Source of the DNA: Xestospongia bergquistia | Lineage: Eukaryota > Porifera > Demospongiae > Haplosclerida > Petrosiidae | DNA length: 64,000 bases | Direction of reading: 5' to 3' | NCBI GenBank assembly: GCA_963965975.1 | Contig: OZ014416.1 | Coordinates: 5,146,001-5,210,000, forward strand | Part shown: positions 17,176-56,891 of the stretch, in pieces | How the letters are laid out: each line of letters begins with the position of its first letter | Position numbering within the stretch: position 1 is the stretch's first letter | Notes under the pieces: generated by a model | Told to the model about the DNA's origin: nothing | The model's database searches: none | Seen by the model: the letters and a program-made list of their open reading frames with translations, nothing else | Translations under genes and position numbers: made by a program

Positions 17176-18478
<1,303 letters not shown>

Positions 18479-18946: not shown

Positions 18947-21720
18947 TCATTTGCTAGAGGTCATCTTTTCAGCAAAAAGACGTGATAGTGTAACAAATTG
19001 TGTCTTAAACATTTCTTCTGGAGAGGAATGACCTGTTAATTGAATTACTACACTCATAACACACACTAGCTATCAACAATATATAATAATAAATATTACA
19101 TACTTGTATCTTGTGTAGTCTCATTAGCTGATACCGTACTTGATGCTCCTTCTTAAAAGAACCTGACTATATCTAACATAACGGATTACTTACCATGTCT
19201 AAGAGATCGTATAATATATATCTTCTTGTTATTAGGATTGATTCCTTTTAATGGCATACTATAGTTTATTTCAGTGACTGTATCAGGCCCATCTTCAGCA
19301 GACACGGTGATCATTAAAGAAGGATAAGATGGAGGATCTACAGAAGCAAACATGTCCACGTCACTTTTATATAATACCTATAAAAAGTATGTACATGTAG
19401 ATTATGTAATAATATATAATCCTACTACATACTGGATCTGTGTGAGGAGAAATACTCCACCCATTGTAAGGATACTTTTGTTCTTCATCAAGGACCAATT
19501 CAATGTAACCATTACTATCTTCAAATGTAAAATTAATGTTGACACCTCTTTCAACATTAGATGGAAGACTGGTCCTCACAAACTATATCCATTACATAAT
19601 AATTGTGCGGTTATATTACATCTATACTCATCTCTAGTAAATGACTGAGACTTTTACCAACAATAAAGTGCATTATCCACTCCCTTTTATTTAGTCTTTC
19701 ATATACAACATAAGCAACATACTTATCTAGTTGTGGTGACAGAGGTTGGCAACTGGTTGTGTTATTGACATCTATCAACAAAGTTATCATAGCTTGAATT
19801 GTGTGTATATTATGCAGTATAGTTCACCTTCCTTGTCTCTTGTTAATTTCTCAATCTCTTCTTGTTTCTCTATACAACATAACCATATATGGTATGTACT
19901 ACTAACAGTACTATAGCTTACCTTCCTTCTCTCTCATCAATTTCTCAATCTCTTTTTGTTTCTCTATACAATATAACCATATATATGGCATGTAATACTA
20001 ACAGTACTATAGCTCACCTCCATTCTCTCTTCTTAACTTCTCAATTTCTTCTTGTTTGTCTACTAATACTTTATCAGTAGCTATGAACATAACCATGTGT
20101 AGTATGCACTACTAATATTACTATAGCTTACCTTCTTTCTCTCTGGTCAACTTCTCAATCTGTTCTTCTTTGTCTACTAATACTTTATCATTAGCTATAG
20201 AATATAACCATACATGGTATGTACTAATGACAACACTTTAGTTTACCTTTTTTCTCTTTGTTCAACTTTTCAATCTCCAACGTCTTCACTTCATTCATTC
20301 TGTCCAATAGTTTCAGTTTCTCTGTTTACATTAGTTACATAGTTATATCTCACTTAATGTATATGTACCTGATAAATTGTCATTTGATAAATGGTCTTGT
20401 TGTTGTTTAGAACAACAAAATAATCAACATATGCAAAATAAAACTGAATAATATATATTGAGCTATAAGTACAACTAACCTTTGTTTTTACTAGGATATT
20501 CTGGTAATTCAGTACTCAATCCCATTTCCTGAAACTTTAGCTGAACAGGTGAAGACTTGAAATATTCTAGAACATCAGAGAAATCATGATATATCTCTTT
20601 CTTATTTCATCAAGTAAGCATCATTCAAACCAGTTCAGTCCCAAAAAATGTGATCCAGTCAAAGATAGTTTTATCTTGCCAATATTTGTTAAGATTAAAC
20701 AAAAATTTTTTATAACCCAATGAGAGCCGTTGCTTTGAGATCAGAAAGTTAATGAAAGGACATAAGATTCTTACAGGAGGCATTACTAATGACCTTGACA
20801 CATGACTTTTTATACTTTTCAAAATTATTATAAATGCTTTTGTCTTTAGCTAATTTATTGATATCTTTCAAAAGGACATAATTAAGATTGCCAATAAAAC
20901 AGTATTTAAACAAAAAAATCTTTAAAAGGATCACTCATATTTCTAATTCTGTTATGCTTTTGCTGACATTCCTTAATCTATTGCTCTCTTGATTTGAATA
21001 TTATATGTTATTGTATCATTAGTGAATATTTTAATATCATCCAGACTAATACTTTTAGATATAAAAGCATTTTGAGTAATAAATGAAAATCTCTCTTAAA
21101 TGTATTTGCTATCATCTCTAAATCATCTGCATTATCAATTACAGTACATAAAAGTCAGTTGGTCTATATAGAGCACACACTGTATGTGACTTTGATGATG
21201 TTAATACATCAAGTTGCAATAGAACATACCATTATAAGAATTCTCTATCCAATTATCATATGCAGAGACTGTCTCTTGAGGAGGACATGCCAATGATTCA
21301 TGAAATTTTGCTACTTGTTGTAGAGGATATGATAATGAACTAAAATTAGTTACATAATAATACATTATTATTGTTAAGTTATAATCACATACCAGTCAAA
21401 TTTGATAGCTTTTCTTCGATTTCTTTCCCAGCATCTCCCACCGGTCCACCAAAGTCTAGAAGAATATCAATAAAACATTTATACCGCTGTTGTATCTCTG
21501 AAATACTCCCACACGACTCAAAGCCAGTTTTGAATTGTTCAAATATACTGGCAAATTCTATTAATAGTGAGGATATAAGTCGCATTGAATATGCTTTGCT
21601 AGCAAAATCCTCCATGTTTCCCTTCAGTACAGATCGAATTCTGTCATAGTATGAGACGAAAATATTGATAACAGCTCTTCTGTAACTTTTAATATCCATA
21701 GTTTCAGTGTTGGAAGCCAT
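18947..21720 (-). CDS. CARD-like domain plus coiled-coil protein, unknown C-terminal domain
   Basis: Thirteen exons: 21393-21720, 21230-21313, 20480-20566, 20247-20321, 20132-20194, 20018-20080, 19922-19963, 19828-19869, about 19662-19771, 19433-19582, 19194-19377, 19104-19148, 18947-19032; about 452 residues. Start ATG is 21720, stop TGA 18947-18949, and an AATAAA lies at 18916-18921. Exon 1 encodes a helical domain (AYSMRLISS) resembling the CARD-like C-terminus of the 33-kb gene. Exons 4-8 are short, phase 1-1 and each encode a Lys/Glu-rich heptad piece (EEIEKL, KEIEKL, EQIEKL), giving a coiled coil near residues 165-260. The C-terminal ~190 residues look beta-rich (RGVNINFTFEDSNGYIELVL) and I do not recognise them. 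Two junctions are uncertain: exon 2 may begin at 21344 instead of 21313, and the donor near 19658-19662 is non-standard. The product could be a coiled-coil adaptor that meets ROC-COR proteins through its CARD-like domain; this is inference. Confidence 0.75.
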
Positions 21721-22029
21721 TTACAAAAAAAGGGCGTATAAGGGCGAGGTCTATCAATTGCACATCTCAGTAAAACAATAATTGGGTGGAGCTCATTTGA
21801 AGGTTTTTCAATAGTTTCTTTGGCTGTTCTAAGGGCAGTCATTCTCCTAATACACAGTATATATCTATATTACAACAATGCACTCAAAATAAAATTCTAT
21901 ATTTATATTCAGCTTCTCTTCAATATTGGCAATCCATCATAAGCTATACTACTAATGTCTTGTTAATGTGGACCTCCTTATTTACTAAACTCTATAAAAA
22001 TAAGTGACAATATTTAAATAACTTCTGAC

Positions 22030-22920
22030 CATCAGGCATAATGTCAATGCTTGACTTGTATTCTCTCATCATGTCACAAAAATTAGCTGCATCTAGATCT
22101 GGTTGATTCAGATATTAGATCATGACAAGACATTTCTACAGCAAATGATTTAATAGATGCCTTCAGAAAACCATCTGAAGGACCATAACGCTGGTAAGAA
22201 CATCTTGTATAATTTTTCTAGCTTCGTTAACTTCGTCACCAGATAACACTGAATCCTTCGAAGTAGCAGTAATTTGAATTTCGGCTGCAATATATAAATC
22301 AGTAATCAGTATATTCAAATTTGTATAAAATTTCAACTGTTTCTCTTACTTGTATTACATGTTTGTCTTAAAAATAAAATGATGAAAATCGCAGTACACT
22401 GTTCTACTCCTACTAATGGAACTTTGTAATGAAGTCTCTTTGCCATGTCATTTCCCTCATGTGGATACACATCTAAATGAAACATGAATAGAGGCTCTGA
22501 ATACATCCTGCTTCCAAACTTTTTAATGGACATATGCCTTAAATCTGACGTGTCACTTTCTTCACTTCCTCTCATAGAAATACCAATTACACTAAATTGG
22601 GCAAGAGAAATGGAACCATATTTGTTTTCTAGAGTGAAGAGACCTCCTGGAAGAAATTGAAATCGAAAAGGAAGTGTTGCATCATTGACTGGTGTTCTCA
22701 CTAACTGGAGAAGGTTACATTGTTTTAGTGTCTCCAGTAACACACATTTTTGTATACCAACAGTGAAAGTGGTTTTAATTGTGGCTTTGAAATGGAAATA
22801 GCATAGACAGTACAGAAAAGCTCAATGTCTTTAGGGTCACCTTCATGATTATTAATATTCTGATTGGTCTATATGTGAATGTCATCTGGGTAATCTTGCT
22901 TCAAATACACTAGTACTCAT
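22030..22920 (-). pseudogene. Broken gene of unknown family upstream of the coiled-coil gene
   Basis: Coding-like sequence reads on the reverse strand in several frames. About 22860-22760 gives EGDPKDIELFCTVYAIS. About 22790-22340 gives a long open stretch with FRFQFLPGGLF, FSVIGISMRGSEE and FMFHLDVYPHEG. About 22285-22030 gives AEIQITATSKDSVLSGDEV, then after one frame change DGFLKASIKSFAVEM, then after another ANFCDMMREYKSSIDIMPDG. A plausible acceptor (TTGCAG) precedes the last part near 22285. The pieces are protein-like in composition but need at least two frame changes that introns do not explain, so I call it a pseudogene or a badly sequenced gene. It ends about 310 bp before the coiled-coil gene on the same strand. 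I do not recognise the family; a beta-rich ZU5/UPA-like domain is conceivable but unproven. Confidence 0.5.
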
Positions 22921-24155
22921 CTTCATGCATCTTCATTACTAAGAACCTGTTCTGCCTTAAGACAACTACTATCATAGTCTATAACAGGAACTATTTATGA
23001 CTATTTGTGATACATTATACTGGCAAGTCACATGACTATGTCTAGTCTAAATATATTAACTCCTAAAATCTTGACCTGGCATTTTAATGAATGACATCTT
23101 TCTCATGGCACACTCTTAATATGTCTTAAGCAGTGAAAACTATCATATTGAAAAGTCTCACTGACATTGACTGTCAAAAGCTGACTTTGTACATGTATAC
23201 ATACATTAGGTCATATTGTACTTATAAACTATAATTTGCTTTGGTGATAGCTTTACTAGAAGGCACATAACATACATTTTTCTACTTTACTGACTTACTT
23301 GACGTCCATATTTTGAGCTTTTCTAGTTCTACTAACTAAAATACTCTCATCAGTTTCTAACTAGTACCAAATTAATATGATATAATATCAATGGAATAGA
23401 CATACTTTAAAGAAGAAAATGAAAGCATTAGGTGACTAATGTTGAGTTAATACTAATAACTTTGGTACTTGTCATAAGTGAAGACTCAATGATGTTGATG
23501 ATGATATCTTGTGTTCAACTTAACAAGAATATAAAAGAGACTATGTCAATATACACAAAAATATCTGTAGTACACTTCTTAAAGAGGTTTACTATTACAT
23601 GTATATTAATTATTTAAAATTATTTCCATTGCATAAACAACTCATTTATTAGATTTATTAGATGCAAGTAATAGTAAGTTCAAAGTACAGGTACAACTAT
23701 ACTTGTCTCATATTACGACATACATAACACAAGTGTCTCTTATTAACACTTAGTCTAGTTAAGTAGTTCTTCCTTTTGAAATGGGTCTAGAGCTAAAGAG
23801 AATTCCAATAAGATCTAATGTTTATACTGACCTTTATTTTTGCTAAATTATCACAAACACTACTTAAGAGGAAGGTCTAGTTTGATAACCTAGTACATTT
23901 CACTTATTATATCATTAAGATATATGAAGAAGTCAGACACAGCTGCTACCAGATATATCATATATTGAGAGATGTTCATTAATGGACTAATAACATTAAG
24001 ATAATGTACATAGTTAAATATAGTAGTGAATGGGACGAAAATAGAATGAATTAGTTGACTTGGATCTAGAGTAGCAGAAATATCGATATCAAAAAAAGAC
24101 TATAAAATGAAAAGCACTAAAATACAGAATGCTTGCCACAACTATAGTATGATAC
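22920..24155. other. Gene-free AT-rich spacer
   Basis: I see no exon, repeat array or element ends here; short open frames have no recognisable features. Confidence 0.5.
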
Positions 24156-26170
24156 TGTAATATTAGTTGACTTCATATTGTAATGTAAATTCTAAGTGTA
24201 TTGAATGCAATTTTGTCATTTTATTCACTATATTGTTTTTGGTTACAACGTTTATGGTCCTGTCATTATTGATTGTGTAATTGTGTGTCCTTTACAATAT
24301 AATAGTCTGTAAGAGTGATATATTGTAATGTAAATTCTAAGTGTATTTAACTCAATTTGACATTTTATTCACTATATTGTTTTTGGTTACCATATTTATG
24401 GTCCTGTCATTTCTGATCATCTAAATTTGTGTCATTTACAATATAATACTCTGTGTGATATATTGTAATGTAAATTTTGAGTCTATTGAATTCAATTTTG
24501 CCATTTTATTCACTATATTGTTTTTGGTTACCACTAATATAGTGCTGTCATTACTTATTATCTAAATGTATGTCTTTTAAAATATAATAGTCTGTAATTG
24601 TGATATATTGTAATGTAAATTCTAAGTGTATTGACTATATTGTTTTTGGTTACCACATTTATGGTCCTATAATTACTGACTATCTAAATGTGTGTCCTTT
24701 ACCATATATTAGTCTGTGAGTTTGATATATTGTAATGTAAATTCTGATTGTATTGAATTTAATTTTCACATTTTATTAACTGTATTGTTTTTGGTTACCA
24801 CATTTATGGTCCTGTCATTACTGATTATCTAAATTTGTGTTCTTTTCCATATAATAGTCTGCAAGCGTGATATATTGTAATGTAAATTCTCATTGTATTG
24901 AATGCAATTTTCTCATTTATTCACTATTTTTTTGGTTTTTGGTTATCACATTTATGGTCCTGTCATTACTGATTATCTGATTGTGTGTCCTTTACAATAC
25001 AATAGTCTGTAAGTGTGATATATTATAATGTAAATTCTGCTTGTATTGAACGCAATTTTGTCCTTTTATTAACTATATTATTTTTGGTTACCACATTTAT
25101 GGCCTTGTCATTACTTATTATCTAAATTTGTGTTCTTTTCCATATAATAGTCTGTAAGTCTGATATATTGTAATGAAAATTCTGATTGTATTGAATGCAA
25201 TTTTGTCATTTATTCACAATATTTTTTTGTTTTCGGTTACCACATTTATGGTCCTGTCATTACTGATTATCTAAATGTGTGTCCTTTTCCATATAATAGT
25301 CTGTAAGTGTGATATATTGCACTGTAAATTCTGCTTGTATTAAATGCAATTTTGTCCTTTTATTAACTATATTGCTTTTAGTTACCACATTTATGGTCCT
25401 GTCATTACTGATTATCTAAATTTGTGTTCTTTTCTATATAATAGTCTGTAAGAGCGTTATATTGTAATGTGAATTGTCATTGTATTGAATGCAATTTTGT
25501 CCTTTTATTAGCTATATTGTTTTTGGTTACCACATTTATGGTCCTGTTATTAGTGATTATCTAAATGTGTGTCATTTAAAATATAATAGTCTGTAATTAT
25601 GATATATTGTAATGTCAATTCTGATTGTTTTGAATGCAATTTTTTCCTTATATTAATCTATTGCTGTTAGTTACTACATTTATGGTCCTGTCGTTACTGA
25701 TTATCTAAATTTGTGTTCTTTTCCATATAATAGTCTGTAAGCGTGATATATTGCACTGTAAATTCTGCTTGTATTAAATGCAGTTTTGTCCTTTTATTAA
25801 CTATATTGCTTTTAGTTACCACATTTATGGTCCTGTCGTTACTGATTATCGTGTGTCCTTTTCCATATAATAGTCAATAAGTGTGATATATTGTAATGTA
25901 AATTCTGATTGTATTGAACGCAGTTTTGTCCTTTTTTTAACTATATTGTTTTTGCACTGTAAATTCTGCTTGTATTAAATGCAATTTTGTCCTTTTATTA
26001 ACTATATTGCTTTTAGTTACCACATTTATGGTCCTGTCATTACTGATTATCTAAATGTATGCCCTTTACCATATAATAATCTGTAAGTGTGATATATTGT
26101 AATGTAAATTATGATTGTATTGAGTGCTATTTTGTCATTTATTCACTGTATTTTTTTGTTTGTGATTACC
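24155..26170. repeat. Satellite array A, about 145-bp units
   Basis: Roughly 14 head-to-tail units, each with GATATATTGTAATGTAAATT, TTGTTTTTGGTTACCACATT and TATGGTCCTGTCATTACTG. Unit starts near 24315, 24455, 24600, 24722, 24868 and 25014 give a 122-147-bp spacing. Units differ by several to many bases, so the array is not newly made. Confidence 0.9.
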
Positions 26171-26910
26171 CCATTTTATGATTGATGAGACAACACTCCT
26201 ATGCATAGAATAGTTATAAAAATGACTATTACAGACGTTTTCAAACCTTAAGTTACCAGCAATAATTCTCTTTCTTCCTAATATTCAGGGTAAAGACACA
26301 ACACCCAATTTTATGGTTGCCACAACAACATTCATATGGATAGAATGGTTATAAAAATGACTATTACAGATAATTTCAAACCTTAAGTTACCAGCAATAA
26401 CACATTCTTCCTAATAATACAATACCCAATTCTTCGATTGCCACAACAACACTCCTATGCATAGAATAGTTATAAAAATGACTATTACAAACATTTTCAA
26501 ACCTTAAGTTACCAGCAATAATTCTCTTTCTTTCTAATATTCAGGGTAAAGACACCACACCCAATTTTACTTTTGCCACTCCTATGCATAGAATAGTTAT
26601 AAAAATGACTATTACAGAATCTTAAGTTACCAGCAATAACACATTCTTCCTAATAATACCACACCCAATTCTTCAGTTGCCACGACAACATTCCTATGCA
26701 TAGAATAGTTATAAAAATAACTATTACAGATAATTTCAAACATTAAGTTACCAGCAATAACTCTCTCGTTCTTCCTAATATTCAGGGTAAAGACATCACA
26801 CCCAATTTTATGGTTGCCACAACAACACTCCTATGCATAGAATAGTTATAAAAATGACTATTACAGACAATTTCAAACCTTAAGTTACGAGTAATAACTC
26901 TTTCTTCCTG
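26170..26910. repeat. Satellite array B, about 120-bp units
   Basis: Six units carrying CTATGCATAGAATAGTTATA, AAAAATGACTATTACAGA and CTTAAGTTACCAGCAATAA. The same core appears in the larger array at 28.6-32.1 kb, so B and that array share an ancestor although 1.7 kb of unique AT-rich sequence separates them. Confidence 0.88.
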
Positions 26911-28650
26911 GAATATAATCAAATCATTGTTATGTACACAACACATACTAGATAACTTTATGTCATCTACTCCAATATTACTTACAGAACACAGGTACAT
27001 AGATTATATATCTATTATATACATGTGTAATTGGTAATTTAATAATTATGGCTACTTAACTTTTATATGACAATTAATGACAGTAGACATTTATATTATA
27101 TAGATCTCCCTATCAAAAGCAACAGATACCTTACCTTTGTTTATTACTGAAGTACAATAGAGACTAAAATGTAATGATATAGACTACATATATATTGTTC
27201 ATATAGAAGGTGACAATTACCTAAATAATGAAACATTACACAAAATCTTATATCCCTAACAACTAATCAATTCTACAACTAATGAACTACATGACTTGTC
27301 ATTAGTTTATTATTAATAAGAACAGTTACTACTTTACAGTATCTCATTATATATTATTCAATAGTAAATATCATTTATTGATTAAATTAACTGATCAATT
27401 TACTATTCTAGTTGTTTTATAGATGAAAGATTCAATTAACAAACTAGCTTTATTGCATGGACTTTGAAACTGACAAATTATATTTCATTGAACAGTATTA
27501 TTTATTCTCTTATGATTTATTAAAGTCAACATAATGTTTAATATTATGATAATTATAATTAGGACATAATTTATAGGGAATAGTATGATGGATTCCTGAC
27601 CAGCTGTGACACATTTCACAGTTATTTGGTGAAGTAGATGTGTTAAATAGTTATGCCATTACAGTCGTAGACTTGGCTTCTTCTATTCTCTTAAAAACAT
27701 TTTGATGCAATAGTACTGCTAGTAATGTGATTGATCTCATTGACAACCTCTTATAATGTACATAGTCCAGTGCTCATTCTACTTAGTCAAAATTTGATGT
27801 CAGTTTACATGATATTATTGTAATTGTTATTTCCTTGTTTCCTTTGATCATGTTAATTATGTTAGTCATTGGACTGATTCAGACTATATCTACAAAATAT
27901 TTAATTTACTAGCTGGTAGCTCCAGCTGTTACTGTTACTCCTGTGATTAATTCCTTTAATGTATCTGGTCCCAATTCGTTTTATAATTGGGATGTAGTTG
28001 TTCTGTAAGTGTGATTTATCAACAGTAGGTAGACCAACAGTATAGTCTGTCTAAAATATTCAAGCACTGCTGCTGGACTAGATTGAATGAGTTGAATTAC
28101 ATGACGTATGAATATGAAGGCAACATTCTCTGCAAAATGAAACACTTCTCCAGATCTTACATTGGATAATGTTCACTTTTAACAATTGATTATTAAACAA
28201 TTATTCTTAATAAATGTACCATAAATGTTGTTTATCTACACACAGTAAACAAACATGTCAATTATTTATAACTCATATTAACTAAAAGACATCATCATAT
28301 AAAAAGGTAATACAGACATCATATTTAGTCAAATGTACATGTACAATTGTTCCATGTACTTCAGGAAACATATAGTTTTAATATCAGTAAATTTGCTACA
28401 CGTATATATTAAGCTCATTAATTACAAGCCTGGTTATTACATACCTGTTCTATATGGTATTATCATAATGAATACTATCATCATCATCTATGTACTTAGT
28501 AGAAGGAATTAATCTTTTATTAATAAATAAATTGACTTACAGTGATGTGTCTTAAAGTACATAAAATTTATATCATTATTGTTTGATATTTGTTCCATTA
28601 ATGAATGATAAGTTGTTTACAATAATTTATGATTAGTTTAATAAATTTAG
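26910..28650. other. Unique spacer between satellite arrays B and C
   Basis: AT-rich, unrelated to the flanking repeats, no credible coding exon on either strand. Confidence 0.5.
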
Positions 28651-32140: not shown

Positions 32141-32383
32141 CAATATTACGTTTTGAACTGAAAGTTTGAAATGTTCATAATGACAACTAGATGGACTTGG
32201 TCTGATTTACTTATGTCTGTATCATAGAAGGGATCAGAAACATCATATGAAGATTATTGTCATTATTACATTTTAGATGTTAGAGTAGACTGTGTTGATA
32301 GCTGATTAATGAAGTGGGGGAGACCTTAGTTGCTCAATCTGTTTATCTGCATGCTATCAGATAATCTGGTCCTTTCTTTTAGT

Positions 32384-33300: not shown

Positions 33301-33367
33301 TAATGTCTTATTATAGAACTAGATCAATCTAACAGTACCAATCAAGGGCTGCCAGCCCCTCCTGGCA

Positions 33368-39037: not shown

Positions 39038-39070
<33 letters not shown>

Positions 39071-42000: not shown

Positions 42001-45000
42001 CTTGTAAAGTTGTCATTATTGTGTATAGTTTGTTTGATTGGAAAATCAGGACAAATTTCTTTAAAAGTACAGTTTCACTTCTTTGTAGTGTCTGTGATAT
42101 AAAAGAGCATAAATTATCTTTTATTTTATTGGATCCTTATATTTACTTATTTATTGATAACTGATTACATTGACTATTTAGTTTATTGTCTAATAGTTGT
42201 TCTTTTGTGATAAAATAACCTTGTCTATTATGTTCTTAGGATGGATGTACACCTGCACATTTTGCAGCAATGGAAGGAGATACTGACACAGTAAAAGTGT
42301 TAATTGAAATTGGACAAGCTGATATGAACACTAAGGATAGAGTAAGTCACAGTAATTGTATTACAAGACATATCATTGTACCAAATTATGACCAATGAAT
42401 TAATTCAAATTACTTCATTTGAGGTTAATAAATCAATAAGACACATGTTTTGATGTGTATTGCTGATTACTAAAACCTGCACTCTACAGCAACTGTTCTT
42501 TACCAGCTCATGATTATTTTAATATGTTTTTACCAAACATTTCAATAATAATAATACTAATGTGTATTATTGATGAATTTAATTAGCAAATATGCTAAAA
42601 TTGTACCATTATGCCTTATGTTAACAACAAAAACATTTTATAATCATTTTAGCAGAAACTGTTTATTGCCATAACTATTCCAAATTTCTTAGAAACAATG
42701 CCAAAAGTTTCTAGATGTTTAATTGTATGTATTCATCAATCACCATGAGCAATTTGCAAAAGTTTCTTCAACCAAATGTACCCATTAAATAATAAAGTCC
42801 AAGGAATCATGTCATCATAGAAGAAAGCAACAGCACATAATTTATTATAGCAACAGTACATATGTCATCATAGCAACAGTTACTAAGCAAATGAAAGTTC
42901 GTCACCATAACATGAATTACTCAGTAATAGCAAATATGTCGCCATAGCAACTGTTGCTATACCAATAAGATATGAGTATAAACGACTATAGTATAACAAG
43001 AATAAACAATGTCATAGTTACCATAGCAACATTGCTATAGCAATTAGGTATGCATCTATCATGATAGCAATGATCTCCATGGTAACAGTTGTCATAACAT
43101 CATTACCATAGCAACAACATATAGATATATTACTATATTAATGTTACTTATAACACTGACAATTGAGCAAATTGTTGTTTTAAGATGAAAATTATAGCAT
43201 TATGCTTTCATATGCTTACAAACTTTGTCAAAACTTATAAAATATATAATTAATGACCATTATTTAATTTCTATTCATAATTGGCAATTTTTACTAAAAA
43301 TGATTTGCTATCAAAAGTTTAACATATAGTTACTGTGACCTTTTTATACATATTTTGGCACAAAACAATTTATTGCCATAATTATTCAAGTTTTGTTGAA
43401 AACAATGCTAAAACATACTATATCTTTAATACATAATTATATATTCATCAATCTCTATGAAAGATTTATAAATTTCAAAAGCAATTGTACCAATAAAATC
43501 ACAAAATATATGGAGTCATACAATAAGCAACAACATATAATTCACTATATCCATGGTATGTAATGTCACCATAGCAACAATCACTATAGCAACAGCATTT
43601 ATTTCACCATAGCAACGGTACTATAGTGTCACAGTGTTTGTTATTAATGATTATTGTAATGTTACTCGTAACTCAAAATAACTCTTTTACAAACAAACAA
43701 CGACCTCTCTTCTTACTAAAGACACGCATGATAATAATACAAAACTGAGCATGCTCAAACATTACAATAACAACACAATATGAATAATCATAAGATACAT
43801 ACACAAATGCAATCCATTACATCTCCCCTCTTAAGCTAATAAGTAAGTCTGTCTGGGGGACGAACAGTTATTCCTGAGCGAGAACGGGTAGTAATACTTC
43901 TAGGTCTAGTTTCCAACTCTGTATCAGTTGATTCTTCACTTCTGACTCTAAGGTCTCTTTGATTTCTACGAACTTGTCCAGATGGCGTATTGACTAAATA
44001 AGATCTAGGAGTATTAGAAGGTTGAACAATTTGACCAGGTACCTGTCTTCCTCCAGTATTCACCCACACTGATAAGTCGTCTGGATATGGTGGTAAAGGT
44101 CTGACTCGATGACGACAGTCATAATAACGCTTTTGTTCCACCTTGAGTTTCTGGTCTAGCCTCCTGAAATTCTTAATATATGGCCATTTAGGAATAAAGA
44201 GATGTTTAATCTGTGGAACATTAGTACGTACTCTGCGATCCATTAATAATTCAGCTGGGCTGAGTCCACACCAAGGCATAGGAGTTGCCCTGTAGGTTAA
44301 AAGAGCCAAATGAATGTCTTGTGAATTTTCCAATAGATCTTTACTGTCCTCTCAGCTAAGCCATTTGACTGAGGGTAATAGGGACTGCTTGTAACATGTA
44401 CAAAGCCATACGACTGTCTAAACTCATTCATTTCCTCAGAAACAAACTGGGGTCCATTATCACTCATAAAGGTTAGGGGAATTCCATGCAGGGAGAAAAT
44501 AGACTTTAAACCTGTTATTACATTCGTGGAGGTTGTAGAGGTGAGCTTTTGGACTTCCACAAATCTGGAATAGTAATCCACTACCAAAAGATACGTAGTC
44601 TTCTTCAGTTCAAACAGATCTGCTGCTACTCTTTCCCAGGGATGGCTAGGAAGAGGAATTTGTAACAATGGTTGAGTAGGAGGGGGTGTGGTCTTCAAAC
44701 ACTGTGGACAGGATTTAACAAATGTTTCTACCTGTTTGGCTACACCTGGCCACCACACTGCTCAGGAGACTCTCTGACGACAACGATGAATACCTTGGTG
44801 ACCATAGTGAATTTTAGAAAGGGTTTCGGCCTGTAAATTTTTGGGACAACAATATGAGTACCAAACAACAACAAATCATCCACAATGCTAAGTTCACTCC
44901 TCACCTTCCAATAGCTTCTATACTTTTCTTCGATTCTATGACGGCCTGGCCATCTTTGGTTGCAGTAAACTATAATTTGGGAACAAATAGGGTCAGCTTT

Positions 45001-48000
45001 TGAGCTTGACAATAGACCTCTAAACGATCAGGATTGAGTGGTAGAGAGGAAACAATAGCATGTAGAAATGATTCCATATCCATATTATCAAAACAGTCAC
45101 TTGAACTGATGATGGGAGCTCGAGAGAGGGTATCTGCTGTATAAAGCAGTTTACCAGGAATATGAGAAATGGAATAATCAAATCGTGAGAGATGAAGTCG
45201 GAAACGCAAAATTCGAGGTGGTAAACTATCAAGATTGGCTTTTCCAAGTAATGCTATGAGAGGTTTATGGTCTGTTTCTAACCTGATATGTTTACCTAAA
45301 ATGTAGTTTGAGAACTTCCTACAGGACCATACAAGGGCTAATGCTTCCTTCTCGATTTGTGAGTATCAACGTTCAGTGTCACTCATTGACCTGGATGCAT
45401 AGGCAACAGCTTTCCACTGGGTGTGTTGCTGTTGTTGTAGAAGGACCGCTCCTAATCCATATGTAGAAGCATCTGCACATATCTTCGTTTCAGCTGCAGG
45501 ATCATATAGGGCTAGAACAACTGGTTTTGTTAGCTCTCTCTTGACATTTTCAAAAGCAGTATCTTGATGGTCAGTCCAAACCCAGGCCCGCTTAGGGCTG
45601 AGGAGCTCACGAAGAGGTTGAGAAAGGTCGGACATTTGAGGGCTGAATTTCCCTAACTGATTGACCATACCCATGAATCGTCTAAGTTGGGTGAGTGTCT
45701 TAGGTGTTTCCATCTTGAGAATAGCAGCTGTTTTACTAGGGTCTGGAGAGATTCCACATTTATTGATCTTATGACCTAAAAAATAGAGAGAGTCTTTAAA
45801 GAACTCACATTTATTCTTGTTTAGAGTCACTCCTGCTGCTAAGATCTTCTGTAATACTGAATGAAGTCTAGCATCATGTTCTTGACAATTTTTCCCAAAG
45901 ATAAGGACATCATCCATATGACAGAGTACTCCTTCCTCACTGGCTAGCATATCGCTCATCCTTCTTTGGAAGCACTCAGGAGCACTACATATACCAAAGG
46001 GTAATTTGTTGAACCAAAATCTACCAAATGAAGTTATAAATGTGATAAGAGGTCTTGACATCTCATCCAAAGGTATTTGCCAAAAGCCGCAATTGGCATC
46101 TAATTTACTAAAAACTGTAGCTCCAGCTAACTGAGCTAAGGTCTCGTCTACCGTTGGCAATGGATGTACTTCTCTCAATACCCCCTCATTGAGTGGCCTG
46201 AAGTCAACACAGATACGGACATTCCCTGACTTTTTTGGGACCACTACCATCCCGGCACACCAATCAGTTGGCTGGTTAACTCTGGAAATGACTCCTAGAG
46301 ACTCCATTCGTATTAGTTCTTCTGCGACCTTTTTCCTTAGTGGAAGGGGAACGTTTCGTGGAGTAAACAGGGAATATGGTTGAGCATCTGCCTTCATTTT
46401 GATAGCATAACTGACCTTGAAGGTACCTAGACCTGTAAACAATGCTGGATATTGATCAGTGATCCCTTGAGTAATTGTGTGTACATGCGACAAAATTCCC
46501 AGAGCTTGAATGGCAGATAGACCAAGAAGGTTCTCTCTCAGTCCTTTCACGACATAGACTAACTGATCGCATGACTTTCCTTTGTATGAGAGTGATGCTA
46601 ACAGCTCACCCAGAACTGACAAACGCCTTTGGTCTGGACCACACAGACTCTTCGACAATTTCCTTAGTTTTTTCAAATTAAGTTGTGTGAGAATGTTCTC
46701 AGCTAGAACAGTAACCTCGGCACCAATATCTACCTTAAAGGTGACTTCTTTCCCATCAACCAACACTTTACAGTTCCATGATTTTGATTGACTCTTAGAA
46801 ACAACTGTGTTCAGGTAAAATCCCTTTTCTTCCTCATCAGATTCTAAAGAGGGTGTTACTACATTAGCAACAGACCTTGAGAAACACTGGGAGCGGTAAT
46901 GCCCCTTCTTCTGGCAGGTATGACACACAGCATCCCTGGCAGGGCAGGTCTGTCTAGAATGTGGGCCTTTGCCACACCTTGTACATTTGTGGTTAGTCCC
47001 TGACCTTTGTCTGGGGCCTCCTTTGGGTGGTACTCTGAAGGGTCTCCTTTGTTGTCTAGAGGTTTTTTTCTCCTTTAGTGTATCCACTGTCTTCATGTCT
47101 CCCTGACCACACTTTAAAATCTCTTGTTGCTCATGCACGGCCTCACGCTGCCTCACCATTTTCTTAGCTTTTTCCAGTGTCAAGTCCGCATCTATTTGCA
47201 TCCGCTCTGATAACGCACTATCACGAATACCGACCACAATTCGGTCTCGGATCATTTCTTCTTTCATGGCTGCAAAATCGCAGTTCTCTGCTAGACTGTA
47301 CAAACTGGTTATAAATTGCTCAACAGACTCCCCTTCGCTCTGACTACGCCGATTAAATCTGGCGCGCTCAAAAATGGTATTTCTTCTAACCTGGAAGAAG
47401 GCATCAAATTTAGTAAGGACTGCCGCGTACGATTTCCGGTCATCCTCGGAGATGTTAGTAGAAGTAAGGGTATCTTCGGCATCTTCGCCCATACAATATA
47501 ATAGTGCGCTGACCTGTCTCTCATCAGATTCACCGGAGAGACCAGAGGCTAGTCTATATTGGTCGAATCGTCGTTTCCACTTAGACCACTGATCAGGTGT
47601 CTTGAACGAGAACTGAGAAGGAGGCTCTAGTTGAATACTGGCCATCCCACTCCTGACACCACGTAATGTTACTCATAACTCAAAATAACTCTTTTACAAA
47701 CAAACAACGACCTCTCTTCTTACTAAAGACACGCATGATAATAATACAAAACTGAGCATGCTCAAACATTACAATAACAACACAATATGAATAATCATAA
47801 GATACATACACAAATGCAATCCATTACAATTATCAAATCCCACATAAAAATAACACAGTGGGAAGCCTATTCTAGCTATAGAGAGTAAAGAAAGCCTTTT
47901 TGTCAACCATAGTGAATACAAAAATACAAATAGAAATAGACATGCACTGTTTGGTACAAGCAAGTAACATATTAAAGTAAAGATTTTCAGCACTATGTTC

Positions 48001-51000
48001 TCAATGTTCTCTATTAGCAATGAGATGTATGTATAACATTATTTATTTTTCACAATACTATATTATAGTAATACAAATACAACATATTGTACACACAGTT
48101 GACTGTGAACCCACAAGCATTGTGAACTGTTGTATAATATAAATATATCACTGTTGATTGAGAGTATACTCATACAATAAAGTACATGTACATATAATGT
48201 TCCAAAGATATTCTTATATCATTTGTAACTGTTGATCCCATAACCTGCTGTAAAAATAACACAAAGTTGAGAATGTTTCACTATAGGGAGTGGAAAAATA
48301 CTTCTTGTCAACCATATTGATTATAAAATACAATACAAATACGTATACACTGTGTGGTACAAGCAAGTGACATAAAATCATAGTTTACTTGCAATAACAA
48401 GTGTCAGTGCTATTACTTAGACATTTAAAAGGTGTTGGTTGTCATAGTTACATTTGCTCCTATGATGATCTTGAAAGATTGATTCAGACCATTTAATGAG
48501 ACAGTTACATACCACTGATGTCTATCTCCACTAGTCACTGCTATTTCAGATTTTACTGTTCCTAGAAAAGTGTTCTTATCAAATTCTCTGACTCTTTTGA
48601 GTCAATGACACATAACCTCATAATGTCCCCATTTACAACACTTTTACAAATACTTTCCTGAGCTGGACATATCAATCTGTTCTGACTTGAGGTGACTTTC
48701 CACGCTTTGTACATCTATACTATTAGAGTCCACTGATCCTTTCCTCTTCACTTTACTATGAAAATGAGTTCATGTCCCTCTTGATCTTTTTCTTGACTGG
48801 GCAATACAGCTTTATGAAAAGTTTTTAAATCTTTTCCATGAACAACGGTCTGTCATTTTTAACAGTTTACTCTGTCCAACTTCAATAATAACTGTCTATA
48901 ACTTGAGTTCAGCATGTAACTGTTTTGCTCTGACAGTTTACAAATCAAAATTCTGACTAAAATCTGATCTCAAATCATCACTTCTCTGAGATCACTGTAT
49001 CTACAGTGCTCAGAGAAGGAGTATATCAACTGTTTAGCATACCTCTGGACATACTAATTAAACCTGTCTCTTTGAAGCATTAGATTCATCTGCTTCATGA
49101 AATGAAGCTGTGTCATATTTCTTTGCTTCTTCCATATTAGTCCAAAAGATTACAAGATATCATCAGTTTCCTCACCCTCAGTGATATAAGTGTCTTTATT
49201 TGACTCTCTTCTGCCTTTATACTAAGACAAAATGCCTAACAGTATCTGTCAAAATATCAAATCTATATTTGTCATTATTCAGGCTTAGTAAAAGGAAAGC
49301 TTTCAGGCTATATAGAAAATACCCATGTGGCAGTTAATGTGTCCCAATCCATTCTATTTAAATGTTAAATGTAATGTTTATTATTGTTAAATTTCATTAA
49401 GATAATTAGCAAATATGCAAAACTGGTACTTTCATTATGTGACTTGTAACAAGACTATTCTGTATGTGTAACACCAAAAAATAATAAATAAGATGTCAAG
49501 GTTTCTATCTGTTAGTCATGATGCCATTCATCATGGCCATTTGTCTAACCAATAGAGTATTGTAATCATGTCTGAGATCCTTATTTTTTGACCATTATTC
49601 CACTTGAATTAGCCAGAAAAACATGAAACATTTGCTATAACTATTCCAAATTTATCAGAAACAATGCCAAAATTACTAGATGTACAATTAATATTTATTC
49701 ATCATTCTCCATGACAATTTAAGAATTTCAAAGCCAATCATACCCACAAAATTCAATATGTTTACTAATATTACATTCTGAACTGTACAATGATTATTAC
49801 CTAAATAAAATAGATTATGCAGAAAAACTAACAAAAACTAAAACTACAAGCCAATAACTATAACTATAAAACTAAACTAAAACTAGATGTGCAATAAACA
49901 ACAACTATAACTAACTAAAATATTTTACTTGGACTAAACAACTAACTGTAACTAAACTAAAACTAAATTTCATAACTAAAACAACACTAGTGTTGTCGCA
50001 AGATCAAGAGTGATTATTTTAGGCAATATATGGAATATACTCAGAGCTGATTGATTCACATAACATTAATTTCATGTTCTGTTTTGCTATGAACACTGTT
50101 TGTGTGGACAATTAGAATTAAAAGAAAAAAGAAGATAGAACCACATATTTACTAGATATTCCTCCAGATAATTATTCCTTTTAAGTCAAAATTTACACAC
50201 AATGTCAGAACTTGTTTCCTTGAAGTGATCCTTTTGTGCAGCTGTTCCAGGTACATTGGTAATTTTTTCACTCTTCCTACATTTCATTTCAGTGAGGTCC
50301 TTAATAAAGGTGTGTTATAGTATCACCACAAGGACATCGGAGTTATATGTGGTAATGTAGACATCTATAACCTAAGATAGGTTTTCTTTGAGTTTGCTAG
50401 TAGCCACTTAACCATGTACTAGATATGGCTTACATCATTTGCTCTGTCAGTTCTAAGGAGTCAATTAGCTTTCTTTCTCCAATATCAAAATTATATTAAC
50501 AGTTCTAATTTTTCATATACTGTGACATTATTAAATCAGCTACATGATGAAGGGCATTTTTATGATCAGAATTTTTGGCTTCAAAAACACCTGCATTGAG
50601 TTCACCTGTTTGCTAGTCTTGTAAAGTTGTATGATGTCTGTAAAACAAATGCATACTCATTAATATAGTCTGTATTTGTTGTTAGAGATGGCACTGAAGA
50701 CTAGGCATTGAATATTAATAATTAATGAACCCAACATAGTGGCATCCCTGTTAAAGTTCACAATATTAGAGCCATTCTTGTGTTAAATATAATTTAGTCT
50801 ATTGTAGAAGCTGTTGCTACAAAGAAGAGGATTGAAACATAATTGGAATGCTTTTCTGAAATGCCAAGATACACTTTTGCTACACATTTGTAGTTGGCAG
50901 GTTCCTCTTACAAGCAATGCTAACTTGAACCATTTTTACATATGAAAACTTCTTCATGTACTTAGTTTCAAGGTATTGTTCAATGTGAATTTAAGTGATA

Positions 51001-54000
51001 TTATGCTTTACATCTTTGTTACCATCAAATGTAAAAGTACCTGTATGGTTTTAACATCAGCCATGACAATTCTAATGTTAACAAACTCTTCTGTAACTAC
51101 TAAACTGGTGGATAGGTCCTTAGACTCTCTCTTACTATGTCTTCCCTAAATTTTGGCTTTCCTTCCTTTATGCTTATCTCTTTTCAAAATAAATTTTACT
51201 TTGTTGTGTGTGACTTTGTATCTACCTATGCTAAGGCATGAAACAGCGCTCTATAAGATCAAAGAGTATATTTATTGTAACAAGTTTAAATCATTATCAA
51301 TACCTTATAGATACACTGAGGTGTAGTTGACTTTGTTAATACGATTCATAGTCTTAAATCCACAGATACTATGAGTGATCTTTTGATACAAATTTTGTAT
51401 CTATACATCAACTTTATTATTGAACTTATACCTGTTGGAATTTTATTCAGTTAACTGACACCTATTAATATATTTGTCAGTTCATGTCAATTACCTCATG
51501 TTTGTGGCAATTTAAATGCCTTTCAAAATGTAATGGCTGGCCATTGATGTCTTACATCAATGTTATTTACATCCTGCACATTTTTTTGTCTTAATGCTTG
51601 ACTCTTACTATGCAGCTTGCTTTGCAAGTTATGATATTCAGTATTTTTTCATATTTTGCCACCTAGTTTATGATGAATATTAATTTAAATCACCATCCAT
51701 TGAACTATTCCATGCCTGATATATCTAGTACCACAAAATTTTTATAACCTTAGAGGAAGTTATAGCAAACTCCAGCAAAAATTATTGTATAAGAATTGTC
51801 TTTATTAAATGTTCTATAGAGACTATTTTCAAGCTTTTTAAAGTGCTACTTTTACTGTCAAAGTACTCAAAGTTAAAATAGATATTGCTGATTTAAAAGC
51901 ATAATCATATTGGTTTCATTACAAATGTTCTAGTTTTATAGTTATCATAGTTCAAACAAAATTAATTATATAAAAAAGAAAAGAACATTGTGTCATATCT
52001 AAATAGACAATGCTGTTGACTACATGATTGTTGTCCTCAAAAACACAAAAGCATTTATGTAAATTGACATTCACATTAATTGACATGTGACCCTAAACAA
52101 TCCTAGGACTATCTGTTGATATGTAGTATGTCAGTTAATTAAAACAAACTAGTCATGAAAGCAAGATACTTCCTCATATTAAAACAAATGACAACACTAG
52201 CAGTCAATAGAAGTATGACTAATTAAAACAACATTATCTTTCAGTCATTATACTCTGTTTATAACTGTTATATTATTGTCAGTGATAAAGGAATAGATAG
52301 AGCTAATTTGTGTTATTGATATTTTCAGTTTTAATATCTTAATATCTTTCTCATCATTTTGCCAAGAATATTGTATCCATGAGATATTAATAATAATATA
52401 ATTATAAAATGCAATATTATAACAAATTATTTTGCTCCATGCTATCATCTAGACCTATGTGTTATGTGTTTACTTCTTTCTCTAGTTTGGCAATACTCTA
52501 CTGCATTCTGCCTGCTCACGTGGTAGAAAGGACACAATACAATACCTGCTAAATGATGTGAAGTTAAATCCACTGGCTGTAAACAATCGTCAACAAATAC
52601 CATTAGAACGTATTCCACCAAATCTCAAAGACAAATTCCAATTACTAAAATTGTTTCAACCATTTCTTCAACATAATATAGAGTATCCAGTAGATTCATA
52701 TGCCAAACTATTCCTTTGTGGAAAAACAAATGCTGGTAAAAGCTCTTTAGCTGCTGTTATATCTTATCGTGCTGACCAGGGACGATACCGTGACTACAAT
52801 CCAGGAGAATGTGTTGAAGATGTTGTATTACAAACCACTGGAATTGACTACCACAGCATTCGCAGTATAGAAGTAGGAAACGTTGTAATTTTTGATTTTG
52901 CCGGACATGCAGAATATTACAGTAGCCATGCTGCAGTATTGGAAACTCTTTTGTTGAGGTCACCAGCTGTCTTTGTAATTGTAACTAATCTTACTGATGA
53001 GAAAGAGATAATAAAGAGGGACCTGTACTTCTGGTTTAATTTTATTGAGAATGTTAGCACTAATTTAATTAGCCCCAGTCAAGTTATAATTGTTGGAAGC
53101 CATATTGATCTTTTGCCACATGAAAATGATTACGATTCTTTTATTAATGAAATTGCAAGTAGTGCCATTCGTGATCAAAATTATATTGGGTTCCTGCCAA
53201 TGGACTGTCATAGACCAGGAAGTAAAGGTGTTATAGAATTTATGACTGAACTAAAGAAGAGCTGTGAAGCTGTTATTGACAGAGAAGATAAAATAAGCTA
53301 CAATTGTCATTGTCTACACACTTTCCTTCAACAGCTTCAACTTGTTGCTATTAGTTTAGATGACCTCTGCTCAAGAATTAAGAATATGAATGAGCCATGT
53401 CTTTTGTCAGACCGATCAACTGTGTTGAAGTTTTTGACCATTCTTGGAGAAAAGGGTCTTGTCTTATTCTTAGGAGATTGGCTAATTATCGACCAAAAAG
53501 CTCTGTTAACTGAGGTAAATGGTATTCTTTTTAATAAAAGCATTGATCGTGTATGTAAACCAGTTACCAGTAACACTGGTATCATGCCAGTGTCCACATT
53601 AGCTAAGTTATTTCCCAACCACAATACAAAAATGCTAATTCGCTTCTTAATAAGTCTACAATTCTGTCACCAAATCAATTCTCGTTCTGTTAGTAACATC
53701 ACAAACAATATACCATCTGAAGAACCTCCTGTAACTGAAGATACCAAATACTTGTTTTTTCCTGCACTTATTAAGGATGAGAGGCCCTCACCAGTCTTCA
53801 ATACAACAGATGGATTTGGTTGGTGTCTATGGTGTCCAGATCCACAACAATTTCTACCTATACGATTCCTTCATACACTACTTCGTCACTTGGCCTATAC
53901 TCGTTGTCTTCCTCCTGACAACACTGGTATTACTGAAACCAATATTAAAGTCAAGGAACTGTATCGTGATTGTACTATGTGGAAAAATGGCATATATTGG

Positions 54001-56891
54001 AAAGATGAGAATGATATCGAAATGGTGGTGGAGGTTACTGAACACAACAGATGTGTTACAATTCTAGTTTCTCACAGTAGTTCCTTGAAAAGTTATGAAA
54101 TCCGTACATCTCTCATTAAAGAAGTACTTAGTCTTAAGAGCAAGATATGCTCGTGTGAAGTGGAGCAGTTTGTTATTCCTCCTGGTAATGTCAATGATGT
54201 TATTGAGAAGGAGCAGAGACACCGTATACTCTATTCCCTCAGAAAAGTAGCCCTTGGAGTTATTATCAAATGTCCTATTGGTGATGCAAACAATAAAACT
54301 GCTAAAAGAGTTGATGTCAGATCAATTGTGGGTGAGAAAGAACCTTACCTTTGCATTGCACCCATTGTCATTGAGGCACTCTTCACAGACTGCAACAACG
54401 ACATATTATTACCACATGCTTATATCCGACACATAGAGGAAGCATGTAAGGAGATAATGCCCCTCTCATCTCATCGGACTCATCTGTCAGCGAGGAAACG
54501 CCTTGATCAATTTAGCATTTTTACTGGCCGTAATCCTTTGGTAAGTTAACAATTTAATAATTTGTAATTGTTTGGAATTTGTACATAGACTACATCCTCT
54601 CGACCTATTAGAGAAGAAGAGATACAATGTCTGCCTGAAGATGATGTTTATGTTACAAAGAAAGGTAGGTTATCAAGCCTATTCTGCTTAAATTTATTTG
54701 TTAATGGTTATAGAATCTGGTACCACTAACTCTGATCAACAAATGCAATCATTGAGTACATATGATATATCAGGTATGTTTGTTTGTCAAATTCATTTTG
54801 TTGGTAAGTAATGATCCAATGTAATAAGTTGTTAATATTAGAGATATGTAGTATGTTTACTTTGGACACTACCTCAAGCTTATATACTATAATTATAAAG
54901 AATACTATACACTGGAATGTATTAACAGTTATTTTGACCTCTTATTTTGAAATTTATAAAAAGTTTAGTTTAGCTTTTTTACTTCAGTTACTAGCAATAG
55001 TAAAAGATATTTGTGATTGTTTTATATTTCACTACTACTGCCTGTCCGAATTGTTACAACAGCCTGTTATTGTTTATTTAATACTATACTATGTTACAGA
55101 TAATCAAGAGTCAAAGTTTGGTACGTCCACTGACAATTTTAGTCATTTTCCTAAATTACGTAAGTTAATAGATTCATTTCTCAACAATTGTTTTATTTAA
55201 TTGTCCTGTTAGTTGCTCAGCCAAAAAGACCTGAAGTTTTAACTCAACTAGTATGTACTGATACTTTATGGCGTAATATTGGTAATGGTCTTGGAGTCAG
55301 TTTTAATATCCTTCAAGGTTTGGCTGAATCCAACCAGTCAAATCAAGCAAAGCTCGACCAAGTTATTCAGAAATGGCTGGACATGAATGGTAAAGATGAT
55401 GGTGCTCCTGTCACATGGATCACAATATTAGATATTCTAAAGGGACCACTTGTTGACAACAAAGCCCTAGCTATGAAGATATACCATTTATTGAAAGAAG
55501 AAAGTTCTAAAGAACAGATAGCTCCAAGTAAATATACAATATAGACACATGATGTTGATACATAAATATTTTAATCTTGATGCAGTTAATAGTTGTGACT
55601 GTGATAATATTGACATTAGCATTAATCTGCTTCGTAGATTCTGTCTGACTTAACATAATATTATTTTTGTCTCAGTTTTATGGGATGAACTAGAAGGTTA
55701 ATATATTTTTAGTGATTTTTATTGCTCTATCTCTTGCCAATATATGTTTGTTCTGACTCATATAGCAATAAGGATTATGTGTATTGCTCACATAATATGT
55801 TTTAGTGTACATACTAATTGTAGTTAAAGGCTATCCAACTATCAACTTGTGACATTCTACAAAAGATTTGTATATAACATGTCACATTTTATGAGGTTAA
55901 CTTTATATCCTATAGAACCTGCTAAGGAATCAGCTACTGCTAATACAACTGAAGGATATAATACTGACAAGTTACCTATGGAACATCAGGTATGATTTAT
56001 CTTCTTATGTTGTAAGTCATGTTAATTTTGGTCATTCATAAATTCAGTTCCTTAATGATATAATAGACAATGATTACATCATCAATCTTTCCTATTGTCT
56101 ATTTATCACATACTTATTCTACTCAACAGCAACAATCCTCACAAGAACTTTTAAATGAGCCCAAAGAAAAGACTGTCTCTAGTGATAGTACACATCAAGG
56201 TAATGTAAGACAATAATAACCATTTCATATAATATTATATGTGATGACATCAACTAATCATTGTGTCACCTACACAGTCTATGTTGTTATAGTTGGCATA
56301 GTGATGTTAAGTAGTTTACTTGGGTTAATAAATGTTGTATTACTTTTTGTTGAGATCAAAATTCATTTATTTTTTTTGTATTTTCTAAATAAACTTTAAC
56401 TTAGTTAAATTTCCTTTTGTTGTTACATTGTGTAGGTACTTCTGAGCCATCAGAAGTATTTCGAGTATATTTTGCTGATATTTGTGATGCCATTGAACTT
56501 AAACCTCTGCCCATTGTTAACCGAGTCTATTCTGCTAACTTGATATCATCAAATTTTAAAGATGATGTACAAAGTATGAGTGGTGATAATTATGACAAAG
56601 CAGACAAAGTAGTTAATGAACTACAACGACAGGTTAAGGAAAAAGGAATTGATTTTTTAATGGCTATCTGTGATTTTCTTCTGAGCCAAAACCATACATT
56701 AAAAGACATTGGCATAAGAATGAAACATCAACTAGAAAGTAAGTGGTTATATTGTATAAATCTAGTATATGACTGTCAGTTATTTTACAGTATATATTTT
56801 ATAATGTAATTTCTTGTTTTAAATGATATTATATTCAAGCAACCTACTGTATGTCTTTCTTTTTACTGCAGGCATAACTCCACCTACTTAA
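33368..56891 (+). CDS. Ankyrin / ROC-COR GTPase / death domain / CARD-like protein, complete
   Basis: Exons: 33368-33406, 33717-33809, 33996-34100, 35296-35394, 36858-36953, 38659-38760, 42240-42341, 52486-54540, 54589-54664, 54714-54773, 55100-55159, 55213-55527, 55676-55696 (21-bp microexon, doubtful), 55916-55989, 56130-56199, 56436-56738, 56872-56891; about 1229 residues. Exons 2-7 are phase-0 ankyrin units. The 685-codon exon holds a last ankyrin piece, P-loop GKTNAGKS (about 291-298), switch II DFAGHAEYY, GSHIDLL at the NKxD position (compare THLD in LRRK2), then COR-like sequence. After it every junction is phase 1 except the one between 55989 and 56130. Exon 55213-55527 (about 963-1067) is a death domain (LWRNIGNGLGVS...IQKWLDM). 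Exon 56436-56738 (about 1123-1223) is a helical CARD-like domain with VYSANLISS. The architecture resembles DAPK1 without its kinase, with a CARD-like domain added. No signal peptide or membrane segment is seen, so it is probably cytosolic. Its promoter blocks match those of the paralog at 1-14.7 kb. Confidence 0.9.
34391..34809. mobile_element. MITE with TA target duplication
   Basis: Inverted ends CCGTAAGGGTATAAATTTTC and its reverse complement with one mismatch; TA on both flanks (34389-34390, 34810-34811), as for Tc1/mariner-type elements. Sub-terminal ACGAAATTTAA / CACGAAAATTTAA motifs repeat near both ends. It is 419 bp, noncoding, and lies in the intron after 34100. Confidence 0.8.
35923..36309. 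mobile_element. hAT-type MITE with G/C-run palindromes
   Basis: Ends CATAGGGGTAGGAA and TTCCTACCCCTATG are inverted repeats, and the 8-bp CAGACAAC flanks both sides (35915-35922 and 36310-36317). Inside the left end, GGGGGGCTTTAGCCCCCC forms a strong hairpin; a TAGCCCCCCTAAT block recurs inside the right end. It is 387 bp and noncoding, in the intron after 35394. Confidence 0.85.
37180..38250. other. Intronic stretch of less AT-rich sequence, probably old inserted DNA
   Basis: Between exons 36953 and 38659 this part is clearly less AT-rich than its surroundings (near 37210-37440, 37640-37850 and 37910-38100) and looks like relics of inserted elements or retrocopies. No frame longer than about 60 codons and no recognised domain were found. 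Confidence 0.35.
39044..39070. repeat. TA dinucleotide repeat
   Basis: A (TA)n run in the intron after exon 38659-38760; absent at the matching place of the duplicated intron. Confidence 0.8.
39850..40200. repeat. Intronic CATAGCAAC-rich block with X-box-like palindromes
   Basis: CATAGCAAC or close variants recur about every 30 bases. GTTACCATAGTAAC at 40096-40109 fits the RFX X-box form GTTRCCATRGYAAC. The matching block of copy 2 (42830-43130) has GTTACCATAGCAAC at 43017-43030. Confidence 0.65.
40370..40860 (+). mobile_element. Tc1/mariner-superfamily transposase relic (C-terminal part)
   Basis: Reads DIQEWLDEHNITYEPTNIKK then DEVANEYGHNIVF, then in a shifted frame LNPIELxW-like NSIQLSWHRLH, and ends with an acidic tail (about 40660-40730) and TAA near 40855. 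This is the end of a DDE transposase of the kind with the PPYHCELNPIE motif, here degraded. The homologous intron copy at 43.3 kb lacks it, so it entered after the 3.6-kb duplication. Confidence 0.6.
41202..41264. repeat. Short inverted repeat with 23-bp loop
   Basis: CAGGTGAACACGAATGGACT and AGTCCATTCATGTTCACCTG pair with one mismatch. It is part of the sequence that copy 1 has and copy 2 of the duplication lacks. Confidence 0.8.
43655..43821 (-). repeat. 3' LTR of the Ty3/Gypsy element
   Basis: Direct repeat of 47663-47828, with TG...CA ends. A polypurine-like run (read as AAGAGGGGAGATG on the element strand) sits just inside it at about 43820-43834, as expected before a 3' LTR. The outer flank is the ATTAT target duplication at 43650-43654. 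Confidence 0.92.
47663..47828 (-). repeat. 5' LTR of the Ty3/Gypsy element
   Basis: Almost identical to the copy at 43655-43821. It is followed on the element strand by the tRNA-Leu-type primer-binding site (about 47645-47663) and flanked outside by ATTAT at 47829-47833. Confidence 0.92.
48430..49170 (-). mobile_element. Old, heavily decayed Ty3/Gypsy gag-protease fragment
   Basis: Scattered reverse-strand phrases match a Gypsy gag end, a zinc-knuckle region and the protease start, in the right order: a KQLIYSFSEHC-like piece near 49.0 kb, a cysteine-spaced piece near 48.7 kb, and a TVSLNGLNQSFKI piece near 48.5 kb. No LTRs were found around it. It carries many breaks and is far older than the element at 43.7-47.8 kb. 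Confidence 0.5.
49820..50000. mobile_element. Partial relative of the ACTAAA-rich MITE
   Basis: AACTAAAACTATAACTAAA-type sequence ending in CTAAAACAACACTA, the same terminal motif as the complete element at 11.5-12.1 kb. The left end and target duplication were not found, so it looks truncated. Confidence 0.6.
50000..52485. other. Distal part of the 10-kb intron 7
   Basis: AT-rich sequence ending in the acceptor TCTCTAG at 52485. Some stretches (50.2-50.6 kb, 51.0-51.25 kb) look like decayed coding sequence on the minus strand but nothing can be named. Confidence 0.4.

Follow-up and report, generated by a model that had tools for sequence, protein, structure and literature searches.

Two probable sister families of CARD-like domains and candidate two-domain adaptor genes in the sponge Xestospongia bergquistia

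A 64,000-nucleotide stretch of the genome of the sponge Xestospongia bergquistia (assembly GCA_963965975.1, contig OZ014416.1, positions 5,146,001 to 5,210,000, hereafter the window) carries a receptor-like gene with ankyrin repeats and a probable Roc GTPase (the ROC gene) and a second gene that encodes a coiled coil. A first-pass annotation of the sequence had placed the same CARD-like domain at the end of the former (A exon) and at the start of the latter (B exon), and had suggested that the neighbours could serve a single undescribed pathway, one as its receptor and the other as its adaptor. Both exons were real at the positions given by that annotation (Table 1). In what follows they are compared with their relatives in the rest of the genome, where genes that combine a B with an A domain offer candidates for such an adaptor.

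The Roc region of the ROC gene lies just below Pfam recognition (26.6 bits versus a cut-off of 27, E-value 7.4e-6), and the ankyrin repeats were matched with an E-value of about 3e-4. Pfam listed no COR family for the window gene at E ≤ 10, and the name COR is that of the first-pass annotation. DAPK1 is a ROCO protein with ankyrin repeats and a death domain, and the window gene has the same predicted order of ankyrin repeats, Roc and a death-like domain, but differs from the DAPK1 type by its additional C-terminal CARD-like domain and by its many copies in one array.

Table 1. Exons assigned to the two window genes (positions within the window)
Feature	Positions	Strand	Remarks
ROC gene, main exon: ankyrin-repeat end, Roc GTPase, region taken as COR	52486..54540	+	
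ROC gene, death-domain-like exon	55213..55530 (ends approximate)	+	Pfam Death E 0.068 to 0.13, under cut-off
ROC gene, A exon: C-terminal CARD-like domain	56436..56738	+	phase-1 at both ends
ROC gene, likely last exon: end of split codon, five codons, stop	56872..56891	+	splice acceptor and in-frame stop in the sequence
B gene, B exon: N-terminal CARD-like domain of the coiled-coil gene	21393..21720	-	own start codon, phase-1 donor
B gene, former exon 2 and middle helical exon	20482..21343	-	frame-breaking changes and stops versus C3 relatives (nucleotide alignment with L012, L018, L011)
B gene, array of short coiled-coil exons	19850..20325 (ends approximate)	-	identity of 48-84% with the 115-bp exon units that stand in tandem at L103
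B gene, unnamed module, first exon	19427..19582	-	
B gene, unnamed module, second exon	19192..19380	-	coding from near 19377
B gene, last exon, stop at its end	18950..19035	-	predicted splice

Compared directly by BLASTP, the two window exons share 9 identities in 32 positions (E 0.066), so the similarity seen by eye at first pass is weak when taken alone, and the spacing of the two shared motifs, thought to be equal, differs (34 versus 31 residues). Searches of the sponge's own genome returned at least 150 scored matches for the A exon, all with E ≤ 2.1e-4, and at least 150 for the B exon, of which 143 were used once C1:16894801 and six other rows, all fragments or second pieces, had been removed; 120 of these 143 had E ≤ 0.001, and the tail beyond this threshold (23/143) may contain strays. 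Among the matches listed, no place in the genome was matched by both queries. A profile-profile alignment, which had been suggested at first pass, gave a match between the families: the family profiles (42 A and 41 B domains) were aligned by hhalign with a probability of 94% and a score of 43.5, as against 20.7 for the best of 200 column shuffles and 11.0 for a reversed profile. Smaller registered alignments gave the same outcome as the full profiles, and the family match agreed with cross-searches by hidden Markov models (HMMs), in which the window copies of A and B themselves scored under the best shuffled decoy. The claim of one CARD-like domain in both genes is supported for the families, but barely by the direct match of the two exons. 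When distant members were removed, the probability was 89% over 40 columns, covering helices 1 and 2 together with the LIS turn. A profile of the genome's death domains matched neither family (0.6% with core A, 1.4% with core B). Against a third set of CARD-like domains (four sequences), A reached 44-75% and B 0.4-18%.

Structures were predicted from 26 A and 32 B sequences, and AlphaFold gave confident six-helix bundles for both families. The A-type model has a six-helix death fold that superposes on solved CARDs, and the A domain of the ROC gene is, as modelled, clearly CARD-like. The closest structural match of the B-type model is the Apaf-1 CARD, with bromodomains scoring nearly as high; it begins with an additional helical stretch, and the third helix seen in the A model is missing from it. 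The superpositions of both models on the Apaf-1 CARD (2p1h) are in keeping with the register of the two profiles, in which A residue 1 falls on B residue 21. With Foldseek, neither model had a match at E ≤ 0.001, and the leading rows for A were CARDs (probability up to 0.96). Unlike CARDs filed under PF00619, such as that of Apaf-1, both families lie below Pfam recognition: no Pfam family was listed at E ≤ 10 for either window exon, a weak CARD match was found in 3 of the 26 A members (best E 0.0031), CARD was listed for none of the 32 B members, and none of the 143 B matches overlapped any of the 32 CARD matches in the genome. As the window copy of A does not reach the gathering score, we term the A domain CARD-like and do not file it as PF00619. 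Searches of PDB sequences with the A and B profiles gave nothing decisive; the caspase-9 CARD, considered as a match of the A profile (E 1.5), was rejected as not significant.

The genes in which the two domains occur were examined with A-type exons taken from two queries (85 of the 150 rows of one search were used, mostly with E ≤ 1e-4), and with the best 150 of 173 matches to the unnamed module and 150 scored out of 983 death-domain candidates. On the predicted gene structures, A-type domains end ankyrin-ROC-death and module-bearing proteins and begin NACHT receptors. Around 19 A copies, ten-kb loci contained an upstream ROC-COR-like exon on the same strand in seven cases, six of them with a death-like exon as well. 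A death domain was found ≤ 3 kb upstream of A in 9 of 150 cases and downstream in 2 of 150. An A-type exon lies ≤ 2.5 kb 5' of 23 of the 97 NACHT matches, with the nearest gaps at 365-428 or 872-907 bp and a second such exon further out in three of these loci, while none of the 97 has one within the same distance 3'; circular shifts gave a mean of 0.09 and a maximum of 3. At C14:556916, the sequence reads as an A exon, a 58-bp intron and a NACHT exon with a P-loop, all in frame, that is, a CARD-like domain encoded ahead of NACHT as in NLRC-type genes. By Pfam, none of the 32 CARD matches was within 5 kb of any of the 97 NACHT matches. One NACHT cluster (C11:421-473 kb) has an A-type exon 5' of seven of its nine members, and at three of the seven another A-type exon lies beyond the first. 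The unnamed module, whose 150 listed exon matches merge into 95 modules, had no Pfam family at E ≤ 1 and reached E 0.41 in a PDB sequence search. Of these 95 modules, 24 have an A-type exon less than 1 kb after them (shifts: mean 0.24, maximum 4), and 5 have one before them. A genome search for Roc was not used for counts (150 of 452 candidates were scored and the C6 array was missing from the list), nor was a crude splice scan of A exons, in which 23 of 36 ran into a stop before a donor-like site and several acceptors were doubtful.

B-type domains, to judge from the same kind of gene reading, usually open the gene, and what comes after them is a death domain, a coiled coil, the module, an A domain or a likely membrane anchor. 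Of 40 fetched B copies, 34 have a start codon immediately before the domain. One of the 150 best death-domain matches comes after B in 18 of 143 copies and before it in none (shifts: mean 0.29, maximum 3). The module lies ≤ 4 kb after B in 4 of 143 copies, including the window, a link that alone is not significant since the shifts reach 5, and ahead of B in 3 of 143. On contig C3, a third type of CARD-like exon comes after B in L012, L013, L014 and L016, directly so in the last three, and the copy in L013 was matched by Pfam CARD only at E 0.13. Locus L102 (C2:2473521-2475741) holds a single open frame of 740 residues in which a B domain is joined to long coiled-coil repeats and the C-terminal part includes a hydrophobic stretch; this single-exon gene (C2:2473572) resembles, as predicted, a tail-anchored adaptor.

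An A-type exon follows B within 3 kb on the same strand in 3 of 143 copies and precedes it in none, compared with a mean of 0.23 and a maximum of 2 in the shifts; two of the three loci share one region of C5. The gene at C1:3166882-3167934 has two exons, B then A, and encodes 248 residues, and that at C5:7666510-7664953 has B, two short linker exons and A, with 241 residues. Both have phase-1 junctions and a stop directly after A (gene ends were taken from the sequence), and A and B domains are, on such gene models, carried as modules with phase-1 ends wherever junctions were read. FADD and ASC are bipartite death-fold adaptors with two domains in one small protein. The genes at C1:3166882 and C5:7666510 are like them in their predicted layout, two death-fold-like domains with short linkers and an end right behind the second; they differ in the kind of domain, A and B, and would be putative adaptors. 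Because B and A are encoded in one gene and both adjoin the same module, the receptor-adaptor idea gains support at the level of families.

The best explanation of these data, which we consider probable as a whole, is that the A and B exons represent sister families, both of a diverged CARD-like domain and both with more than 100 relatives in the genome, and that they connect A-bearing receptors, B-A adaptors and B-headed scaffolds. Ligand binding to ankyrin or leucine-rich repeats (LRRs) would switch a ROC or NACHT nucleoside triphosphatase (NTPase), and this switch would cluster the A domains; clustered A domains may then recruit the small B-A adaptors by A-A contact, and the B domains of these adaptors could nucleate B-headed coiled-coil or death-domain scaffolds. 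We infer the contacts, their order and direction, and an immune role from the families, the predicted folds, the architectures and the B-A genes. The median net charge is -2 in both families, and no charge complementarity between A and B was found. A wider version, which we offer tentatively and hold to be rather doubtful, is a two-domain code in which A on NACHT, ankyrin-ROC-death and module proteins recruits B-A adaptors, whose B domains assemble B-headed proteins of the coiled-coil, death-domain or membrane-anchored kind. Such a code would amount to an ASC-like hub invisible to Pfam, and at least some sponge NLRs filed without an N-terminal domain would be CARD receptors.

The B gene in the window reads as a stray that has been rearranged and whose middle exons are damaged. 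Whether it is a pseudogene, such that a functional reading would be warranted only for intact copies elsewhere, is a serious question, to which we would answer yes with a little less than even confidence. Relative to three C3 relatives, its exons 2 and 3 contain frame-breaking insertions or deletions and stops; of the three relatives, L018 has a broken exon 3 as well, while its frame is open in L012 and L011. A C3 relative has B, a death domain, a CARD-like domain and a weak TRADD-N match (E 0.13), and of the last three parts the window retained only a CARD-like remnant downstream of the B gene (17231-17305, minus strand, 25 residues, 60% identical to the exon of the relative); the other B copy on C6 has stops inside its B domain. 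Against a pseudogene, exon 1 is open over 109 codons, and the median ratio of non-synonymous to synonymous substitution rates (dN/dS) between it and C3 relatives is 0.34 (10 pairs), compared with 0.75 among the relatives L010-L020 (45 pairs); these values exclude L011, which has a stop, and a few non-coding codons, and become 0.37 and 0.72 with them. By hand reading, moreover, the coiled-coil exons keep open frames and phase-1 ends, and exon 1 could splice past the damage. As exon 1 is open with a low dN/dS, a shortened B gene is possible. For the C3 copies, the data suggest relaxed or diversifying selection. Among close C3 copies, dN/dS ranges from 0.3 to 1.62. At L103 (C3:211200-216000), near-identical exon-intron units of 115 bp encoding a coiled-coil repeat stand in tandem, and the window array is shorter and diverged.

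It is unlikely that A alone is CARD-like and that B is an unrelated helical bundle whose LISS stretch and helix pattern arose by convergence. The bromodomains that make up most of the structural matches of B behind the Apaf-1 CARD, the core alignment of only 40 columns and the low values of B with the third CARD-like set would fit such an origin, but the best shuffle reached half the A-B score, and the profile register coincides with that of both superpositions on the Apaf-1 CARD.

As to the window genes themselves, 34.7 kb separate the B exon from the A exon, a further A fragment lies 31 kb from the B exon, and the two genes are on opposite strands. Among the matches listed, 72 A matches fall within 4.39-8.45 Mb of the window contig, and 68% of random points in this 4 Mb array are within 35,065 bp of an A copy, which is why the proximity of the two genes means little. 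An A copy occurs within 20 kb of 11 of the 143 B copies, each of these with one on the same strand, a number reached by 0 of 300 circular shifts; within 5 kb there is no excess (1 of 143, reached by 181 of 300 shifts). The closest relatives of the window B exon, among the matches listed, are on C3. That the two genes form a dedicated receptor-adaptor pair, held together by binding between their CARD-like domains, is very improbable, since the relatedness of the families, the open first B exon with its low dN/dS and the 20-kb excess are outweighed by chance-level co-occurrence at 5 kb, distance and opposite strands in a dense array, relatives on another contig and damaged exons 2 and 3. The two genes are probably not a dedicated pair and lie together by chance, and the receptor-adaptor model of the first-pass annotation, right in kind but wrong in place, is plausible between families only.

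Sponge immune-receptor surveys rest on Pfam domains, and here these would miss the A-type exons before NACHT, which, if general, would shift the view of the time at which NLRs were linked to CARD signalling. In the available passages of a sponge NLR survey, NLRX, a class mainly without an identified N-terminal domain, is the largest (PMC12909245); NACHT genes here resemble this class, as so described, in that Pfam sees no CARD near them, but the 23 with a 5' A-type exon would be NLRC-like. For Amphimedon, the available part of another study describes a large expansion of TRADD-N proteins with one to three N-terminal Death-like domains (PMC8195603). The C3 relative with B, death domain, CARD-like domain and weak TRADD-N match is similar to these as described there, but the window copy lacks those parts except for the CARD-like remnant. 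A Pfam search for TRADD-N gave no genome match at E ≤ 0.01, from which absence does not follow, as the control was likewise silent. Brown algae have exon-shuffled ROCO repertoires in which, according to the available text, the shuffled exons are LRRs (PMC11378527). The available passages of PMC12909245 and PMC8195603 contain no description of A or B domains, and the titles and abstract openings examined name no A- or B-type domain or ROC-CARD-like family in sponges. The small B-A genes provide a concrete adaptor hypothesis that is testable with isolated proteins.

Other features of the window include an open frame of 162 residues that lies upstream of the B gene (22333-22821, minus strand), for which no Pfam family at E ≤ 1 and no PDB sequence match was found; it bears a possible likeness to the UPA/ZU5 part of FIIND proteins. 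Repeats of roughly 170 bp at about 24140-24500 have, by eye, the look of a short satellite. The remains of a long terminal repeat (LTR) retrotransposon occupy 43836-47672 (minus strand), with gag, protease, reverse transcriptase and integrase-like frames recognized by eye and broken between frames, and with a G+C content near 0.41-0.42 compared to about 0.30 around them.
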